DNA from: a virus
Strand: one strand, 5' to 3'
Virus record (IMG/VR): IMGVR_UViG_3300029448_000437
Coordinates: 1-24,038 of that record
DNA length: 24,038 bases
Shown here: one piece after another, positions 2,110 to 24,038 of the stretch
Layout of the letters: the number at the start of each line of letters is the position of its first letter
How positions within the stretch are numbered: the stretch's first letter is position 1
Notes under the pieces: generated by a model
What the model was told of the DNA's origin: nothing
Database searches by the model: none
Seen by the model: only the letters and a program-made list of their open reading frames with translations
Translations under genes and position numbers: made by a program

Positions 2110-2220
2110 ATGCCAATATGTAAACATTGTGATCATGAGTGTCATTGTAGTAACGGCGGTTCTTGCTGCGGTGGACAATGTACTTGTGGAAATTGTGAAT
2201 GTAAAAAGGAGGACGAATGA
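2110..2220 (+). CDS. Metallothionein-like Cys-rich mini-protein, 36 aa
   Basis: A complete ORF of 36 codons begins at ATG 2110, nine bases after a strong TAGGAGGT, and ends with the TGA at 2218-2220, sharing ATGA with the next gene. Ten of 36 residues are Cys: positions 4, 7, 11, 13, 19, 20, 24, 26, 29 and 31. The spacing is C-x2-C-x3-C-x-C-x5-CC-x3-C-x-C-x2-C-x-C. His occurs at 6, 9 and 12, there are no aromatic residues, and the tail is acidic and basic (KKEDE). CxC and CC motifs without hydrophobic core residues are the hallmark of metallothioneins, so Zn, Cd or Cu(I) binding is likely. The gene sits inside the neck operon and is translationally coupled on both sides. It could buffer metal in the infected cell or be a small metal-stabilised virion part. 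Alternative: a zinc-ribbon-like fragment, but there are too many Cys for that. Confidence 0.78.
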   Translation: MPICKHCDHECHCSNGGSCCGGQCTCGNCECKKEDE

Positions 2221-2503: not shown

Positions 2504-3052
2504 ATGGCTTACGCTAACGGAAAGTATGCTTTATTTATTTCTGATCGTAGTGGATTACAATTTCCCTACACAGAAATGGTAACAGAATGGAACGGTGCAA
2601 AAGTTCACACAAGTGAATATGAACCTAAGGCTCCGCAAATTCAACCACAAATTCATACACCTGATGCGATTCCTTTATTAGATCCAAGACCTGCACGTAT
2701 AGCACCAGTAACTACACAATTACTTCCACCAAATCCATTTAGATTTACAGCTGGAAGTAAAAATGTTTCTGTTTTTAATCCAGGTAATACCTATACAACT
2801 TCTGATACAATTATGTTTTGGAATGCAGCTAACAGTGGCACTGAAGGATCTACTACACAATTTCAAGGAATGGGTGTAACTGGAACTGATCGTTTTGGTG
2901 TACCACCTTCTGAATTAATGTCCGCTTCTGGATTTACTCCAACAAGTGTAAGTGATGATTTTATTAATATAACCATTACTTCAACACCTTCTGCAACTGG
3001 ACCAGGTGGTGGAAATGTGGTATTTATTGGACCAACTACGGTGAGCGCATGA
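2504..3052 (+). CDS. Conserved phage neck-region protein, 182 aa, unknown function
   Basis: ATG 2504 is eight bases after the previous stop, with no clear Shine-Dalgarno. The N-terminus (residues 1-40: YANGKYALFISDRSGLQF, then PYTEMVTEWNGAKVH and TSEYEPKAPQ) matches a pattern I remember from many phages, always near neck/adaptor genes and without an assigned role. Residues 40-90 are Pro-rich and probably extended. The C-terminal half is Thr/Ser/Gly-rich, with beta character, and contains FQGMGVTGTDRFGVPPSELM. Its end overlaps the next gene by ATGA, which is why I expect it to be made in step with the second adaptor. A structural neck role is inferred. Confidence 0.75.
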   Translation: MAYANGKYALFISDRSGLQFPYTEMVTEWNGAKVHTSEYEPKAPQIQPQIHTPDAIPLLDPRPARIAPVTTQLLPPNPFRFTAGSKNVSVFNPGNTYTTSDTIMFWNAANSGTEGSTTQFQGMGVTGTDRFGVPPSELMSASGFTPTSVSDDFINITITSTPSATGPGGGNVVFIGPTTVSA

Positions 3053-3792
3053 CAACATATACTGAATTAGTAAATCAAATAAGAGATTACACAGAAACAA
3101 ATACAACAAATTCTGCTGGTGCTTATAATGGTGTCTTAACTGATACTATAGTTAATGATTTTATTGAATTTACTGAAAATAAAATACTAAGAGATTTAGC
3201 TTTACCTAATTTTACATCACATCAATATGCAAATTTTACAATTGGAAATGGCTTTTTAAGTTTACCTGGTGCAACAGGTATTAATCCTACTTTATTTTCT
3301 ACAATTAATAGTCTTATGATTTACCCTGCATCTGGTTCTGGAGACAGAACTTTTCTTGATAGAAAAGATGTAAGTTTTATGAATGAATATTGGCCTGATA
3401 GATCTCAAACAGGGACACCAAAATATTATTCACAATGGGATGATAATACTGTATACGTAGTGCCTACTCCAAGTGCAGCTTTTACTGTAGAGTTAAGTAT
3501 GTCTAAATTACCGGATAGACTTACTTCTAGTAATCCTACTACTTGGATTGGAGATAACATACCTAAGTTATTACTACATGGGTGTCTTATTGAAGCCTTT
3601 AATTATTTAAAGGGTCCAGCAGAAATGCTGCAAATTTATACTCAATCGTATGAAACCACTTTACAAGAGGTTGCTGCGCAACAAATGGGTCGTGGAAAAC
3701 GTGATGAATATTCAGCTGGTGTACTTAGAGTACCTAGACCTTCATTTCAACCAGGACTTGGATCACAAAAATTAACTCAAGGAGGACAATAA
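3049..3792 (+). CDS. Adaptor / tail tubular A-like connector protein
   Basis: Starts at ATG 3049 within the ATGA overlap. The N-terminal helix (TYTELVNQIRDYTET) and the following DFIEFTENKILRDLALPNF are typical of podovirus adaptor proteins of the T7 gp11 / SU10-adaptor kind as I remember them: they form a ring under the portal and connect to the tail nozzle. The centre is beta-rich with FLSLPG, a conserved spacer, TPKYYSQWDDNTVYVVPTP and a strand run. The C-terminal helices (IPKLLLHGCLIEAFNYLKGP, then MLQIYTQSYETTLQEVAAQ) resemble the usual end of this family. At 247 aa it is slightly longer than T7 gp11 (196 aa). It is the second adaptor-like protein in the window (compare 1343-2101). The call is by pattern recall, not a search. 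Confidence 0.75.
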   Translation: MTTYTELVNQIRDYTETNTTNSAGAYNGVLTDTIVNDFIEFTENKILRDLALPNFTSHQYANFTIGNGFLSLPGATGINPTLFSTINSLMIYPASGSGDRTFLDRKDVSFMNEYWPDRSQTGTPKYYSQWDDNTVYVVPTPSAAFTVELSMSKLPDRLTSSNPTTWIGDNIPKLLLHGCLIEAFNYLKGPAEMLQIYTQSYETTLQEVAAQQMGRGKRDEYSAGVLRVPRPSFQPGLGSQKLTQGGQ

Positions 3793-7311: not shown

Positions 7312-7658
7312 TGAAAGCATTAATTTTAAATAATAAAGTTGTAGATTTAAAAGAAGTAGAATTTAAAGTTCATTCAAGTTTAACATGGGTAGATTGTGAT
7401 AACACTGTAGAAATTGGATATGATTATAATGGTTCAACATTTTCAAAACCTGAAATAACTTTAAGTATGAAAATGGAAAATATTAGAAGTAATAGAAATT
7501 TTTTAATTAAAAAAACAGATTGGTGGGCATCGTCAGATATTACAATGACAGATGCCGATAAAAAATATAGACAAGATTTACGCGATATAACAAATGGCTT
7601 AGACACGTTAGATAAAGCTAACAATGTAACATGGCCAACTAATCCAAGAGAAGTTTAA
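7311..7658 (+). CDS. Tail-fibre assembly chaperone-like protein, 115 aa
   Basis: Starts at ATG 7311 in a TAATG overlap with the Gly-rich fibre. Residues about 57-95 read IRSNRNFLIKKTDWWASSDI, then MTDADKKYRQDLRDIT, followed by WPTNPREV at the end. This R-N-x-L-I-x-x-T-D-W-W...M-T...Y-R-Q-x-L-R-D-I pattern is the signature of the phage tail (fibre) assembly chaperone families found after fibre genes. The N-terminal part (residues 1-50) is a small beta domain. Position just after the fibre fits a dedicated folding/trimerisation helper. No signal peptide or membrane segment. Family assignment is by motif recall. Confidence 0.82.
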   Translation: MKALILNNKVVDLKEVEFKVHSSLTWVDCDNTVEIGYDYNGSTFSKPEITLSMKMENIRSNRNFLIKKTDWWASSDITMTDADKKYRQDLRDITNGLDTLDKANNVTWPTNPREV

Positions 7659-8107
7659 TGCCATACGTAGGACGCGATTTAAGTATAGGGGATAGAAAGA
7701 TATTGACGCCAACTGGTTCAACGCCGGCGACAACATATACCTTACAGAATGCTTCTGTGGATTACCATCCATCAGCTGCGCAAAATTTAATCGTGTCAGT
7801 TGGAGGAATTATACAAGCACCTACAACAGCGTATACAATTTCAGGGGCTACGATAGACTTCTTAGGAGTATCTGTAGCGGCAGCAAATATTGACTTTATT
7901 GTTGCGATGGGTGAAGATGTTGATGTGGGTACCCCTTCAGATGGGACCATATCTGCAGCAAAATTGTCCTCGACTTTTTACGCAGAAAACCCTAAAACAT
8001 ACTCAGATATAACAATAAGTTCTGCTAGTAATGGCATGGCCGCTGGGCCAATAACTATTACTGGTACTTTAACAATTCCTTCGGGATCAACCTTTACGGT
8101 AGTATAA
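7658..8107 (+). CDS. Minimal tail fibre protein (anchor domain plus short end)
   Basis: Starts at ATG 7658 (TAATG). The N-terminus MPYVGRDLSIGDRK is related to the fibre at 5263. Residues about 20-105 are the same type of anchor domain (TTYTLQNASVDYHPSAAQNL, then VSVGGIIQAPTTAYTISGAT and DGTISAAKL). After that only about 40 residues remain, ending SASNGMAAGPITITGTLTIP and then PSGSTFTVV, a pattern I recall at the ends of marine phage fibre genes. With 149 aa there is no large receptor-binding tip. It may be a base plug onto which another fibre, possibly the next gene product, assembles, or a fibre that lost its tip. Confidence 0.77.
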   Translation: MPYVGRDLSIGDRKILTPTGSTPATTYTLQNASVDYHPSAAQNLIVSVGGIIQAPTTAYTISGATIDFLGVSVAAANIDFIVAMGEDVDVGTPSDGTISAAKLSSTFYAENPKTYSDITISSASNGMAAGPITITGTLTIPSGSTFTVV

Positions 8108-18643: not shown

Positions 18644-20698
18644 ATGGTTTCGTACCTACGACCTCTTTTTAAAGTTGGCTACAACGCTTTACGATCACAG
18701 TATGGTAAAGGAACACCACGTGTGTTTGAAAATTTTAATGATTCAGCAAGAGAAGCATTTAAAAATCCTTACGTTAAAAATTACTTAGATGCAGCATCTA
18801 ACAAACAAGGAATTGTACGTACAGCTGCAGCTACATCATTACCTTTTATGGCATATGATGAAATATCAGGGTTACTTCCAGAAAGAGTACAAGAATCTAC
18901 AAAAATAGAAACACCAAATAAAGCTGAAGCTGGTCCTGGACCATGGAACGAATTTAACTCAGTTAAAAAACCAGAGATTATTAATACAACGGAAATTCTA
19001 AAAGAAAACCCTAATAAAAAATTAGATAATTTAGAAAAAGATTTTAATGAGCAGTATGATGGCACAGGAACCAACACTGCTTCTACTAATTCAGCAACGG
19101 TTAATGCAACAAATAGTGCAGGTACTGATACTATTGAAAGTGATGCGGTAACACGTGTTAAAGCGTACAAAGATATTGTTCGTCAATTTGTAGGCAGTGG
19201 AGATCAAAGTGCACAGATGCAGAAGCAAGCATTGCTGATGAATATTGGTGGCATGTTAATGGCAGGGAAATCTAAAGACCCAGGCATGGCAGGGTTTACA
19301 GAAATCATTGGACAAACAGCCATGGCAACAGCCCCTATGTTATTTCAAATGGGAGCAGAGCAAGGTAAAGCAGAACGTGAAATAGGTCAAGCAGCTATGC
19401 AATTGTACATGGAAGATTTAAATGAAGATGATGATCGTAGTGGTGACTTTACTGCTGTGTGGCAAAATGAATACAAGCGTGGTGAAAATGGTGAGGTTAT
19501 GTATGATCAATTAACAGGTACACCTATTGTTACTGACAGAAAATTAGTAAGCCAGTTCCGTGCTAACAGTGATGAAACAAATTGGTTCTTAGATCAAAAC
19601 AATGCACTTGGTTTTCCTCGTTATACATTCCAACCATCAAGCGCTACGGGCCCAGGTCTTTTTGGAGTAAGTGGAACACAAGAAGGTGGGGCAATGTTAA
19701 TGTCAAAAGCTGGTAAAGATTCAATGATTAAATTTGCTGACTATACTAGACGTGGGTTGATACCAATGGCACAAATGATTATGCCAATGATGATTGAAAA
19801 CCGTGACAGTTTAATTGGTTACAAAGGATTTCTAGGAAGAAACGTAGGTCCTACTGCTTTCTTAGCAAGTGAAGCTGTTAAGGGATTAAAAGCAGGGTTT
19901 GGAGAAAATTCTATTACACAACTTGGAGATGAATCATTCCAAGTTAATCGTAATAGTGAACTTGGTAAATTTTATAGCCAAGTACTAGGTAGTGGCCCTA
20001 ATGGACAAGCTTACGATCAAGTAGGTGATGGTATGTCATTTGCTGTATTAGAAGCACCAACTGATGGTGCTTTTGTAGAGATACCAGGTCTAGGTGAGCA
20101 ACCAGTCTTTGTAGATACAGGTGGTAAGTATGGTGTGCGAGGAGCAGAATATTTAACAAGATCTAATTTAGAAAAAGTTTTATTTGATCCACGTAAAGGT
20201 CAATTAGAAATCTTTGAAACAACTTTAGGTTTAATGTTGGCAAGAAACAGACAGCCAACAGGTCGTATGTTAGCAGACGTTCTTCGAAGATCATTTGAAG
20301 AAACATCTATGACATCTTTGATGGGTAAATCCAACATGCCTGAATATGTTATTGGTAAATACGTAAGTATCTATAATGAATTATATACTAACATGAGCCA
20401 AGCATTAAACTTAGCTGGGTATGTGTCAAGCGATGCACAAAAAACCAATGCTTCTCAAATTGTATCACCAGGAGCATTTGAAATTCCTGGTATAGAAAAC
20501 TTTTATAATTCTTATTATAATTTAAGAGCTAATGATCCAGCATACTCAGTTGCTGGTTACAATATTGAAGGTGTTAACGTTCCACAATATCCTGATTGGA
20601 ATGGTGGTAACGGTGCAGTAGTGTATCAAGATAATCTTCAAACAAATCAAAACACAGAAAGTGTGTTTGATAAATGGAATAACATATTTGATGAGTAA
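18644..20698 (+). CDS. Large internal virion protein, 684 aa
   Basis: ATG 18644 follows AGGAGTTTAA. The N-terminus is basic (VSYLRPLFKVGYNALRSQYG). Residues about 95-165 form a low-complexity Thr/Asn/Ser linker (ASTNSATVNATNSAGTDTIE). Residues about 167-250 are a strong helical part: VTRVKAYKDIVRQFVGSGDQ, then QKQALLMNIGGMLMAGKSKD and TAMATAPMLFQMGAEQGKAE, a Met-rich amphipathic region. The rest is a soluble mixed domain with many Asp/Asn, ending in FDKWNNIFDE. No catalytic motif of a lytic transglycosylase or peptidase could be found by eye. Size, order and coupling to the next, even larger gene match the internal core proteins of T7-like and P22-like phages. The function is inferred. Confidence 0.72.
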   Translation: MVSYLRPLFKVGYNALRSQYGKGTPRVFENFNDSAREAFKNPYVKNYLDAASNKQGIVRTAAATSLPFMAYDEISGLLPERVQESTKIETPNKAEAGPGPWNEFNSVKKPEIINTTEILKENPNKKLDNLEKDFNEQYDGTGTNTASTNSATVNATNSAGTDTIESDAVTRVKAYKDIVRQFVGSGDQSAQMQKQALLMNIGGMLMAGKSKDPGMAGFTEIIGQTAMATAPMLFQMGAEQGKAEREIGQAAMQLYMEDLNEDDDRSGDFTAVWQNEYKRGENGEVMYDQLTGTPIVTDRKLVSQFRANSDETNWFLDQNNALGFPRYTFQPSSATGPGLFGVSGTQEGGAMLMSKAGKDSMIKFADYTRRGLIPMAQMIMPMMIENRDSLIGYKGFLGRNVGPTAFLASEAVKGLKAGFGENSITQLGDESFQVNRNSELGKFYSQVLGSGPNGQAYDQVGDGMSFAVLEAPTDGAFVEIPGLGEQPVFVDTGGKYGVRGAEYLTRSNLEKVLFDPRKGQLEIFETTLGLMLARNRQPTGRMLADVLRRSFEETSMTSLMGKSNMPEYVIGKYVSIYNELYTNMSQALNLAGYVSSDAQKTNASQIVSPGAFEIPGIENFYNSYYNLRANDPAYSVAGYNIEGVNVPQYPDWNGGNGAVVYQDNLQTNQNTESVFDKWNNIFDE

Positions 20699-23600
20699 TG
20701 GCTGAAGCAGATAATAAAAGAATAAAAAAATATCAAGAAAGTGTTTTTGGTAATATGCCAAGCGGACAAGGTCCGACAGATACAAAATTTACAACTACAT
20801 CTGAGACTGGTATTCCTATTACAGAATCACAAGATATAATTCAAGGCAATCAAAAATACGCAACTGATTTACCTTTAGCGCCTTTTCAAATTATAGGTAA
20901 TGCTATAATGCCAGGCCAACCTTTTGGTAAAAAAAATCAATGGTTACAAAATGAAGAACAAAAAAAGATTTATGAAGCTAAAGTTATGGAGTCGCAAGCT
21001 TACACGGCACGTAAGGAACAAGTACGATCACAACTAGCAACAATATTTGATAAAGCAGATAAACGTTTTAAAGAAACAGGTGATGAAAAATATCATCAAA
21101 TGGCAATGCAAGCTAAGAATGAAATATTTTCAGCTGCAGGTTTTACCGATGGTGATTTTTTACCTGTAGGACCAGAAACATACAGTCAGTATGATGAGTT
21201 TGGTTTGTTTACTAATCAACCTAATCCTTATCCAATGATAAATGCTCTTGGCGAAGGAGTTATAGGAACAGTAGGTGCTGTTAAAGGATTTAACATGACT
21301 AAACCTGGATTTGGTTTAGTTAAAAAAGTAGCTGAAGGCATGGCTAAAGGTTTTGTCAAAGGTAAAGGTGGATGGGCAACACGTGCATTGAGTAGTATTA
21401 TATATGGAGGTGCAGCTGTAGCTGCAGCTGACTTTGGTTATGAAACAGTGCTTGATACAATGGACCGTGCAGGAAAAGCAAAAGCATATCTTGCAATGGA
21501 ACCTGAGGAAAGAAGTGGTGCTGTAGATGCAGAAATGAATACGCTTTTAGATAAAGCTTTAAGACCTGTTGATATGGTATTAGCACAAGCACCGCGTGCT
21601 TTAACATTTGGTGCAGAAGGAATTAATAGACCTAAGTTAGGAGAAAGAACACAAGCAGCTATTGATGAGGGATTATTTGATGCAGGAATTAGTACTGCTT
21701 TCTTTGGTATACGTCCTTTGTATCTAGGTTTAAAAGCAATAGGTGGTTCTTTGGCTGGTTTAAAAGCAGTTTCTCCATCTTCAAAAGTTTTTGGTAAAGA
21801 AATGGAAGATCCAATAGCTAAAGAAATGTTTAAAGATTTTGGTTCTCCAACGCCACAAGAAATTGTAGCAGCTGAACAACGTTTAATGAAATTTGATCCT
21901 AAAGATCCCATGGTAGTTGGTGTCGGTGGACGTGCATTACTTCCGTTTGGAAATATAAAATCTATTCCTGCTAAAGAAGAAGTACAAATGAACATACCAG
22001 TTATTGGTAAAGCATTTAGTCATATCATAAACAGTAAAGCATTTAATTGGTTAGGCCCTGCAAATAATAAAAGTAAATCTTTTGTTCCAGGAGATACACC
22101 GTTAGATGAAATAGCTGGAACTACCCTTCCTCGTTTCTCCGTAGCTGGTCGTCCATACATTGGAGCGTTTGTAAATGCGTTTCAACGTGTACCTGCATTT
22201 GGTGGTCCTATTAGAGCCGGCATACAAGTAGCCGGTGAAGCTCAAAAAGTAAGAGCCATGGAAATGCTCGGAAGATTTGCTCCTTACATTACAACAGCTG
22301 ACATGGGTGTTGATTACATTAAGTTAGCAGGAAAAACAGCTAAAGGATTTAGAGAACAAGCAGTTAAATATGATAAAGAAATTTTACAAGCAGCAAAAAG
22401 TGCAGGTGCTATTGTAGATAAAACTCAATCAGTTAACACAGCTAAAGAAATTTTATTTCGTTATAGTAAAATGGGAATGGATGAACAAAGAAAGTATGGA
22501 GCGTTTGCTAGATTTTTAAACAAAGAAATCTTACAAGCACCAGAAAACTTTGTCCCAGGCACACAATTATTAGCACAAAATAAAATAAAAATTGGTGACA
22601 TGTATGCACTGAAAAAAACATTAGATAGTAACTATCAAAATTGGGCAAAGAGTCCTGACATAGGAACCATGGGTGATGATATTAATTTATTATACAAAGC
22701 ATTTGAAACAGATGTGGGTAGCCTAGCAAAAACACCTTATGCTAATGTGTCAAAACTTTGGGCAGAGTATGAGCAATTCCTATCAAATGGTATGCTTTTG
22801 TTTGGTACAAATGTCGGAAAAAATTTAGCAAATGTAAAACGTTTTGGTTTTAATGTAGCAGTAGGGGAAAGCCCAGCTAATGCTAGTAAAAATTTATGGA
22901 ATGTTTTAGCCAAATCAACTGACACTGGTGCATTTGTTCCAGATAATCTTTTAGCTTTAAAAAATATTGTAGGAGAACAAGCATACAATTCTGGTTTAGG
23001 TCATTACATAACAAATATTATAAAAAAATCTGTCTCTGACGTAGAAGGTATTCAATATATAAATCCAGATTTATTAGCAGCTGGCATGGGTATCGGTAAA
23101 AGTGGCTCTCCTATTCAAGAGTTATTTAAAAAAGCTTTACCTGGCCCAACTATTCCAGAATATAAAATATTTAATGGAGCAAAAAACAGATGGGAAAACT
23201 GGTATGAAGATTTATGGGGTAAGATTCCAAGTAATATTCCAAGGTCAGAAGTAAAAGCTGTAACAAGTAGTCTTCCTACGTATAAAGATTTTGAAGATTT
23301 AAATTTAGTATTAGATCGTATCTTTAAATATGGTATGCCTAATCAAAGTACATTCCTTGCACGTTCAACTGTCCTTCAAGGACCTGTAGGTGCAATGAAG
23401 TCTAGTTCACCAGCTGCAGGTATGTTAACTGCTTATGGTACATCCACAGCAGCAGGAGCAGTGGCACCTATCTTAGCGATGGCACCTTTCTTTGGCTTTC
23501 GTTATCTAGGTAAGATTGTAACTAACCGTATTCGTATGCGTAACTGGAAAAACGCTATGGATGATACATTACCTTTAGTTCTTCGAACAAGAAACTTGGA

Positions 23601-24038
23601 ACGATTAATTCAAGAAATGCCAGATGAATATGAAGAATGGTATGCTACAGTAAAAGACATGGAATCAGCTAATCGTAAAAGAAACATGATGAATTTAAAT
23701 AACAATGCAATGAAAGATATGCAACAAAATGTTAGTGAGGCTATACCAGGTATACTACAAGGCGTAGGAAATGCTGTAGATGCAATACCTGCACCTCTTA
23801 GACAACCTGTAACAGAAACAATAAAAGAATCCATAACACCAGAACAAAACACCTATCAAGATGGCACCGCTGCTTATACAAGTGGTGGAGGTAGCACTGG
23901 ATCTGCTATAACAGGAAGCAACGTTATGAATTCAAATGCAGCTGCGTCTTTGTATACAGGTAACACGGACCAAGCACTTGCTAATCAATACAGTATGAAT
24001 CAAGGTGGTGCTGTTGAATTAAATCCAGTTATGGGTAA
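20698..24038 (+). CDS. Giant internal virion protein, 3' end beyond window
   Basis: ATG 20698 overlaps the previous stop (TAATG), and the frame stays open to the last base; at least 1113 codons are visible and the final codon is cut (AA-). The N-terminus is charged (AEADNKRIKKYQESVFGNMP). A helical segment lies near residues 100-145 (QVRSQLATIFDKADKRFKET). Residues about 226-250 (ATRALSSIIYGGAAVAAADF) and 918-940 (AAGAVAPILAMAPFFGFRYL) are hydrophobic enough to meet a membrane, and the second is followed by a basic stretch (NRIRMRNWKN). The remainder is a long soluble helical protein, with a Ser/Thr/Gly-rich segment near the edge (TSGGGSTGSAITGSN). It corresponds in position and size to T7 gp16-like core/ejection proteins, but no N-terminal transglycosylase domain is visible. 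Confidence 0.75.
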   Translation, partial: MAEADNKRIKKYQESVFGNMPSGQGPTDTKFTTTSETGIPITESQDIIQGNQKYATDLPLAPFQIIGNAIMPGQPFGKKNQWLQNEEQKKIYEAKVMESQAYTARKEQVRSQLATIFDKADKRFKETGDEKYHQMAMQAKNEIFSAAGFTDGDFLPVGPETYSQYDEFGLFTNQPNPYPMINALGEGVIGTVGAVKGFNMTKPGFGLVKKVAEGMAKGFVKGKGGWATRALSSIIYGGAAVAAADFGYETVLDTMDRAGKAKAYLAMEPEERSGAVDAEMNTLLDKALRPVDMVLAQAPRALTFGAEGINRPKLGERTQAAIDEGLFDAGISTAFFGIRPLYLGLKAIGGSLAGLKAVSPSSKVFGKEMEDPIAKEMFKDFGSPTPQEIVAAEQRLMKFDPKDPMVVGVGGRALLPFGNIKSIPAKEEVQMNIPVIGKAFSHIINSKAFNWLGPANNKSKSFVPGDTPLDEIAGTTLPRFSVAGRPYIGAFVNAFQRVPAFGGPIRAGIQVAGEAQKVRAMEMLGRFAPYITTADMGVDYIKLAGKTAKGFREQAVKYDKEILQAAKSAGAIVDKTQSVNTAKEILFRYSKMGMDEQRKYGAFARFLNKEILQAPENFVPGTQLLAQNKIKIGDMYALKKTLDSNYQNWAKSPDIGTMGDDINLLYKAFETDVGSLAKTPYANVSKLWAEYEQFLSNGMLLFGTNVGKNLANVKRFGFNVAVGESPANASKNLWNVLAKSTDTGAFVPDNLLALKNIVGEQAYNSGLGHYITNIIKKSVSDVEGIQYINPDLLAAGMGIGKSGSPIQELFKKALPGPTIPEYKIFNGAKNRWENWYEDLWGKIPSNIPRSEVKAVTSSLPTYKDFEDLNLVLDRIFKYGMPNQSTFLARSTVLQGPVGAMKSSSPAAGMLTAYGTSTAAGAVAPILAMAPFFGFRYLGKIVTNRIRMRNWKNAMDDTLPLVLRTRNLERLIQEMPDEYEEWYATVKDMESANRKRNMMNLNNNAMKDMQQNVSEAIPGILQGVGNAVDAIPAPLRQPVTETIKESITPEQNTYQDGTAAYTSGGGSTGSAITGSNVMNSNAAASLYTGNTDQALANQYSMNQGGAVELNPVMG

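Follow-up and report, generated by a model that had tools for sequence, protein, structure and literature searches.

A small cysteine-dense gene behind a phage head-tail adaptor and its candidate metallothionein-like family

The mini-gene located at positions 2110-2220 (+ strand) of the window, i.e. the whole 24,038-nt stretch that was analysed (IMG/VR record IMGVR_UViG_3300029448_000437, positions 1 to 24,038), is a real gene under selection. This mini-gene and its relatives are best read as a new, so far unrecognised metallothionein-like phage family, whose function we infer from sequence. With a probability of about 0.6, the encoded 36-aa protein would be a metallothionein-like protein holding d10 metals in a thiolate cluster and buffering metals and thiols late in infection.

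The mini-gene and its conservation behind the adaptor

Translation of the 36 codons gives MPICKHCDHECHCSNGGSCCGGQCTCGNCECKKEDE, an acidic peptide with 10 Cys (positions 4, 7, 11, 13, 19, 20, 24, 26, 29 and 31), 3 His (positions 6, 9 and 12) and neither F, W nor Y. The cysteines form three CxC, one CC and two CxxC motifs. A sequence-only reading of the window had described the ten Cys, the three His and the lack of aromatics in 36 codons, all of which translation confirms. The remaining genes of the window contain 22 Cys in 7,289 residues (0.3%), and the probability of at least 10 Cys in 36 residues by composition alone is about 1.5e-17.

The mini-gene is preceded by a Shine-Dalgarno sequence (AGGAGG, 2100-2105, + strand) that overlaps the TAG stop codon of the adaptor gene (2099-2101), and its TGA overlaps the ATG of the next gene (ATGA, 2217-2220, + strand), an arrangement predicted to couple their translation. 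Both the strong Shine-Dalgarno and the ATGA overlap had been pointed out in the same reading. Among 77 relatives, the most frequent contexts upstream of the start codon contain a Shine-Dalgarno motif, and the junction with the next gene is ATGA in 44 and TAATG in 33. The Shine-Dalgarno of the next gene (AAGGAGG, 2206-2212, + strand) falls within the mini-gene codons for Lys-Lys-Glu-Asp, and all 77 relatives have a Shine-Dalgarno-like motif within the final 25 nt of theirs. Since this signal is embedded there, AAG GAG is forced on the KKE codons, against the preference of the other genes of the window for AAA/GAA (~87% of the time). Hence, the conservation of the C-terminal KKE is partly due to the embedded Shine-Dalgarno and not to selection on the protein. 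Open reading frames in other frames or on the antisense strand were also considered over the mini-gene and rejected: no alternative frame stays open in every relative, and frame +2 is interrupted in all of them.

Upstream, the mini-gene adjoins a SU10-type head-tail adaptor gene (1343-2101, + strand, 252 aa; PF24175 SU10_adaptor, 8.3e-7; phrog_12985, 8.9e-22). Downstream, on the same strand, are located a small gene without Pfam or PHROG match (2217-2495, 92 aa), a conserved gene (2504-3052, 182 aa; phrog_28581, 5.7e-40) and a second SU10-type adaptor gene (3049-3792, 247 aa; PF24175, 1.5e-24; family phrog_10775). Placing the mini-gene in a neck operon between adaptor genes was right, as both adaptors match PF24175; two genes separate it from the second one. 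The small gene (2217-2495) accompanies the mini-gene, both being missing in HTVC023P, where gp54 abuts gp55, and the 182-aa gene directly follows the adaptor in phages that have no mini-gene.

Elsewhere in the window, a protein with a C1q-like domain (PF00386, 10341-10973) and another with a glycine-rich domain (PF21722, 6511-7311) are probably tail-fibre or receptor-binding parts. In addition, a 1,113-aa open reading frame without Pfam match (20698-24036) runs past the window end. The DNA of the region had no match in INPHARED, and tblastn with the capsid region, carried out for host placement, gave no match either. The nearest isolates by adaptor (~43% identical) are listed one on Gammaproteobacteria and the other on Pelagibacter.

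A first set of 80 loci was collected from IMG/VR using the upstream adaptor as sole bait, and a Cys-rich ORF is found immediately 3' of the adaptor in every locus with enough downstream sequence. All 77 readable relatives selected in this way (77/77) carry a complete, aromatic-free ATG ORF, 25-38 aa long and containing 7-11 Cys, located 5-9 nt past the adaptor stop. Adding the loci found by motif brought those with sequence to 165, with two seeming exceptions that proved to carry the mini-gene as an extended ORF (L116) or with a GTG start (L187). Using the L116 adaptor as a second bait, a script found the mini-gene in 71 of 72 readable loci, and the remaining one (L517) carries a variant with additional residues. 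As some contigs occur more than once, distinct adaptor sequences give a better count than loci: over all searches there are 168, of which 109 have a mini-gene behind them and 59 do not. The latter belong to HTVC023P-like pelagiphages, whose adaptor gene is directly adjacent to the next conserved one. When 71 adaptor representatives were placed in a tree, the 20 rows without mini-gene were all split from the others by a single branch (support 99/98). The sequence-only reading had asked whether close relatives lose the ORF while keeping its neighbours; no loss was found among close relatives.

Other Cys-rich ORFs were observed in the HTVC023P-like phages. Four of their contigs, without a mini-gene behind the adaptor, have a longer relative located ~2.5-3.3 kb upstream of the adaptor (L236:733-891, L242:1216-1359, L262:397-552 and L265:217-393). 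HTVC023P (MN698239, ~29014-29175; L189 locus, 7500-7661) has an unannotated Cys-rich ORF, FCFECHHDCHCDKICPKCSCYTCN, which begins inside purM in a different frame and is possibly a diverged family member at another site. Furthermore, a second recurrent small Cys-rich ORF (MWKKICKWIKK..MRACCKS..RKAFCCC) is located upstream of the adaptor in these phages (L189 11378, + strand; L194 2445; L261 3597), and its frame in L189 differs from that of the annotated gp52.

Selection was analysed on 27 distinct long-form sequences picked by their adaptor only. The eight framework Cys, Cys19, His9 and His12 are invariant in all of them, and Cys20 is replaced by Thr in one subgroup. At the nucleotide level, both TGT and TGC occur at Cys19 and at six of the eight framework positions. 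Close pairs show four synonymous and no non-synonymous changes in Cys codons, compared with 14 and 8, respectively, in the other codons, and the median dN/dS of the mini-gene in the adaptor-selected set is ~0.24. The Cys codons, where the sequence-only reading had proposed to look for selection, are thus under purifying selection in these adaptor-selected long forms.

The central CC segment is present or absent among close relatives, the number of Cys varying from 7 to 11, and the CxxC, CxC and CxCxxCxC framework is retained throughout. Such gain and loss with the framework kept is what a flexible chelator, and not a rigid fold, would be expected to show. The short forms (25-30 aa) lack the CxH part. 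The adaptor tree requires several switches between mini-gene forms, a number that is only indicative because the forms were assigned with a crude pattern that mislabels some of them. Two loci (L003 and L004) have adaptors 98% identical to that of the window, yet a short form of the mini-gene behind them. This pattern suggests that alleles are exchanged or that the central Cys segment is rapidly lost.

Members in other phages

Viral contigs were scanned with two motifs, CxCxxCxCKKE and CxxCxHxCHCx5C. The latter retrieved at least 100 peptides, and 96 of those listed are not located behind an adaptor of the window type; the family is larger than the scans list. Its consensus is C-x2-C-x-H-x-C-H-C-[SG]-N-G-x-x-C-...-C-x-C-x2-C-x-[CH], and the framework common to the members in other phages, C..C.H.CHC..C.C..C.[CH], defines here the mini-family. 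Neighbouring genes encode a virion structural protein, a head maturation protease/scaffold, a portal, a T4-like baseplate wedge, a terminase, an exonuclease or a DNA polymerase, as well as a tail lysozyme, a holin or a regulator. For instance, a member from a distant phage (L171) is again located directly behind a SU10 adaptor (PF24175, 1.2e-16), and another (L084) lies near a phrog_10775 tail protein, i.e. the family of the second adaptor of the window. One 73.6-kb contig carries two members. Just upstream of another member, an arginyl-tRNA-protein transferase C-terminal domain (PF04377, 1.6e-8) is encoded at L318:519-1292.

Members are also carried by three cultured pelagiphages: Mosig EXVC030M (Mosig_00110, QOI69074), HTVC106P (gp37, QGZ18080) and HTVC008M (AGE60383, diverged), all deposited as hypothetical proteins. 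These isolate members were reached via neighbour genes; tblastn of the window peptide and of longer members in INPHARED returned nothing useful, the low-complexity filter probably masking them.

The sequence-only reading had seen novelty in the very short form and in the place between adaptor genes. Neither is unique to this mini-gene, equally short relatives being found at many late-gene and a few replication-gene positions. Because the family occupies many other positions, the place is better evidence of late expression than of a role specific to the adaptor or the virion. The late-gene setting is itself not universal, since some members adjoin an exonuclease, a DNA polymerase or a regulator.

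In a collection of bacterial and archaeal genomes (257 Gb), the 111 in-frame motif matches listed are all low-complexity or in unrelated frames. Moreover, the family profile found no member at 1e-5 in 385 Alphaproteobacteria genomes drawn around a Phaeobacter genome. As a positive control, this profile gives 5e-13 to 7e-15 for contigs already known to contain members and finds HTVC106P, which is outside the sequences of the profile, at 1.2e-4; it misses the Mosig and HTVC008M members at E 0.001, which sets the limit of this cellular control. On the matches listed and these 385 genomes of one class, the mini-gene family looks virus-specific.

Proposed role, rival explanations and significance

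An acidic, aromatic-free and Cys-dense chain with fixed CxC spacing would be best explained by a thiolate-cluster metal binder. We infer from these features that the mini-protein binds metal, as well as which metal and to what physiological end. The eight framework Cys (plus two in the long form of the window) and the conserved His would wrap a few d10 metal ions in a thiolate cluster, Zn(II) being the most likely and Cu(I) or Cd(II) possible. Its operon position and translational coupling imply that the mini-gene would be made together with neck and tail proteins; as its translation would be tied to that of the head-tail adaptor and the tail genes, it would be expressed late, a timing predicted from gene order and supported by the recurring late-gene neighbours. 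The most likely role would be to buffer metals and thiols inside the infected cell during virion assembly. This buffering may consist in holding Zn released as host proteins are dismantled, in shielding the assembling proteins from thiophilic metals or in supplying late phage enzymes with Zn. For the marine metallothionein BmtA, roles in donation and storage have been proposed (PMC9337993). A more far-reaching and rather doubtful extension is that the mini-genes form a virus-specific metallothionein family, common in marine phages and absent from the annotation libraries that were searched, which is used as a standard tool of late infection; with it, phages would seize the Zn/Cu pool of the host during assembly and may also charge the virion with metal or transport metal with it.

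The mini-protein could instead be a minor virion or assembly protein, either a Zn-stabilised mini-module on the adaptor or neck or an assembly metallo-chaperone, and would for this reason be locked behind the adaptor. We consider this unlikely. It would agree with the absolute positional conservation within the adaptor clade, with the positions of the L171 and L084 members and with those of members adjoining portal, protease/scaffold and baseplate genes. However, the neighbours vary widely and include holin, exonuclease and DNA polymerase genes, HTVC023P-like phages possess the adaptor with no mini-gene at the same spot, and the free variation of length and Cys number in close relatives is unusual for a fixed binding surface. 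A virion role, though possible, is thus weakened by the variety of neighbourhoods and the elastic length. The chance is smaller still that the protein is primarily a thiol redox buffer, whose ten Cys would remove reactive oxygen or protect structural proteins from oxidation, metal binding being secondary. Its high Cys density would suit such a function, and metallothioneins also scavenge reactive species (PMC7387436), but the conserved His and the strict CxC/CxxC spacing indicate metal ligation, whereas a plain redox buffer needs no fixed spacing.

Slightly less probable again is a small Zn-finger regulator acting on RNA, DNA or a host protein. The CxxCxHxCHC start does look like a compact zinc-binding module, and bacterial metallothioneins include a zinc-finger fold (PMC10612145). 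Nevertheless, a single finger would not require as many as eight to ten Cys in 36 residues, the CxH part is missing from the short 25-30 aa forms, no recognisable fold appears in a model of middling confidence, and the acidity of the peptide argues against nucleic-acid binding. Finally, it is scarcely credible that the ORF is a non-functional spacer bearing the Shine-Dalgarno of the next gene. The motif embedded near its end in 77/77 relatives agrees with a spacer but accounts for the last codons only; this explanation is contradicted by the invariant Cys with silent changes elsewhere, by the strong Shine-Dalgarno of the mini-gene itself and by its relatives in unrelated contexts.

To our knowledge, metal handling in phages is almost unexplored. 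The presence of the mini-gene in every member of the clade examined, together with its recurrence in many unrelated phages of the ocean, implies that the benefit is strong and general. The family has been overlooked because low-complexity ORFs of 25-40 aa escape gene callers, domain libraries and masked searches. These data suggest that marine phages provide a metal-binding protein of their own in late infection, a question that is directly testable since the cultured phages Mosig and HTVC106P carry members. If metal binding is true, viral lysis would free protein-bound Zn or Cu in metal-scarce surface waters; if the virus-specific takeover of the metal pool late in infection is also true, the mini-gene family would be a viral part of ocean trace-metal cycling.

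Comparison with metallothioneins

The window peptide matches no family of Pfam, PHROG or NCBIfam at E up to 1, and searches with PF00131, PF01439, PF02067, PF02068 and Metallothio_Pro gave no match at E up to 1 either. Among 33 members of the family, hits to Pfam metallothioneins are weak and scattered (best 0.0017, composition-prone and below the curated cut-off), and Metallothio_Pro matches none of the 33. Against the PDB, the profile of these 33 members retrieves five sequences at non-significant E of 0.08-0.95, all metallothioneins and mostly beta-domains, with no bacterial metallothionein among them. Three of the beta-domains score 38-40 bits, compared with shuffle maxima of 31-32; they exceed all 3000 shuffles and no fewer than 2998 of 3000 permutations in which the Cys stay in place, these hits having been pre-selected as the best. 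Because of this choice, common descent with animal metallothioneins is not claimed, convergence with their beta-domains being as likely. The AlphaFold2 model of the peptide is of middling confidence (pLDDT 70, pTM 0.34), and Foldseek with this model found no PDB match, nor did it match the SmtA-type fold that contains a zinc finger.

According to the sequence-only reading, phage-encoded metallothioneins have already been reported; no such report was found among the openly accessible papers searched, pelagiphages and Caudoviricetes included. A paper on HTVC023P-type pelagiphages mentions neither cysteine, zinc nor metallothionein (PMC9599517).

The window peptide and its 77 relatives share the class traits of metallothioneins: they are smaller than 10 kDa, Cys-rich and aromatic-free. 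The class trait of conserved CxC, CC and CxxC clusters under selection is present as well and supports the metallothionein-like Cys spacing that was first noticed. The framework C..C.H.CHC...C.C of the window peptide is shared by Mosig_00110, HTVC106P gp37 and HTVC008M AGE60383; the HTVC106P and HTVC008M members deviate from it at single positions, Ser replacing one Cys in HTVC008M. The neighbours of these cultured-pelagiphage members differ from those of the window, being in a T4-like baseplate region or at other sites.

With the beta-domain of animal metallothioneins (1m0j, 1dft, 2mrt and 2mhu), the phage peptides share the spacing C-x-C-x5-C ... C-x3-C-x-C-x2-C-x-C-K, S/G/K positions between Cys and the absence of aromatics. 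They differ by a CC where the animal proteins have CxC, by an additional N-terminal CxxCxHxCHC with His and, unlike vertebrate-type metallothioneins, by their single domain with no alpha-domain. No SmtB- or Zur-type regulator was seen beside the mini-gene. The bacterial metallothioneins SmtA, BmtA and PmtA resemble the phage peptide in being small and Cys-rich, in their His ligands and in their prokaryotic setting. They also contain a CxCxxCxC segment, as it does; the phage peptide is shorter, lacks a hydrophobic/aromatic core and has its segments ordered differently. The His of the phage peptides is both a likeness to bacterial metallothioneins, of which it is typical, and a contrast to those of animals, of which it is not (PMC10612145).
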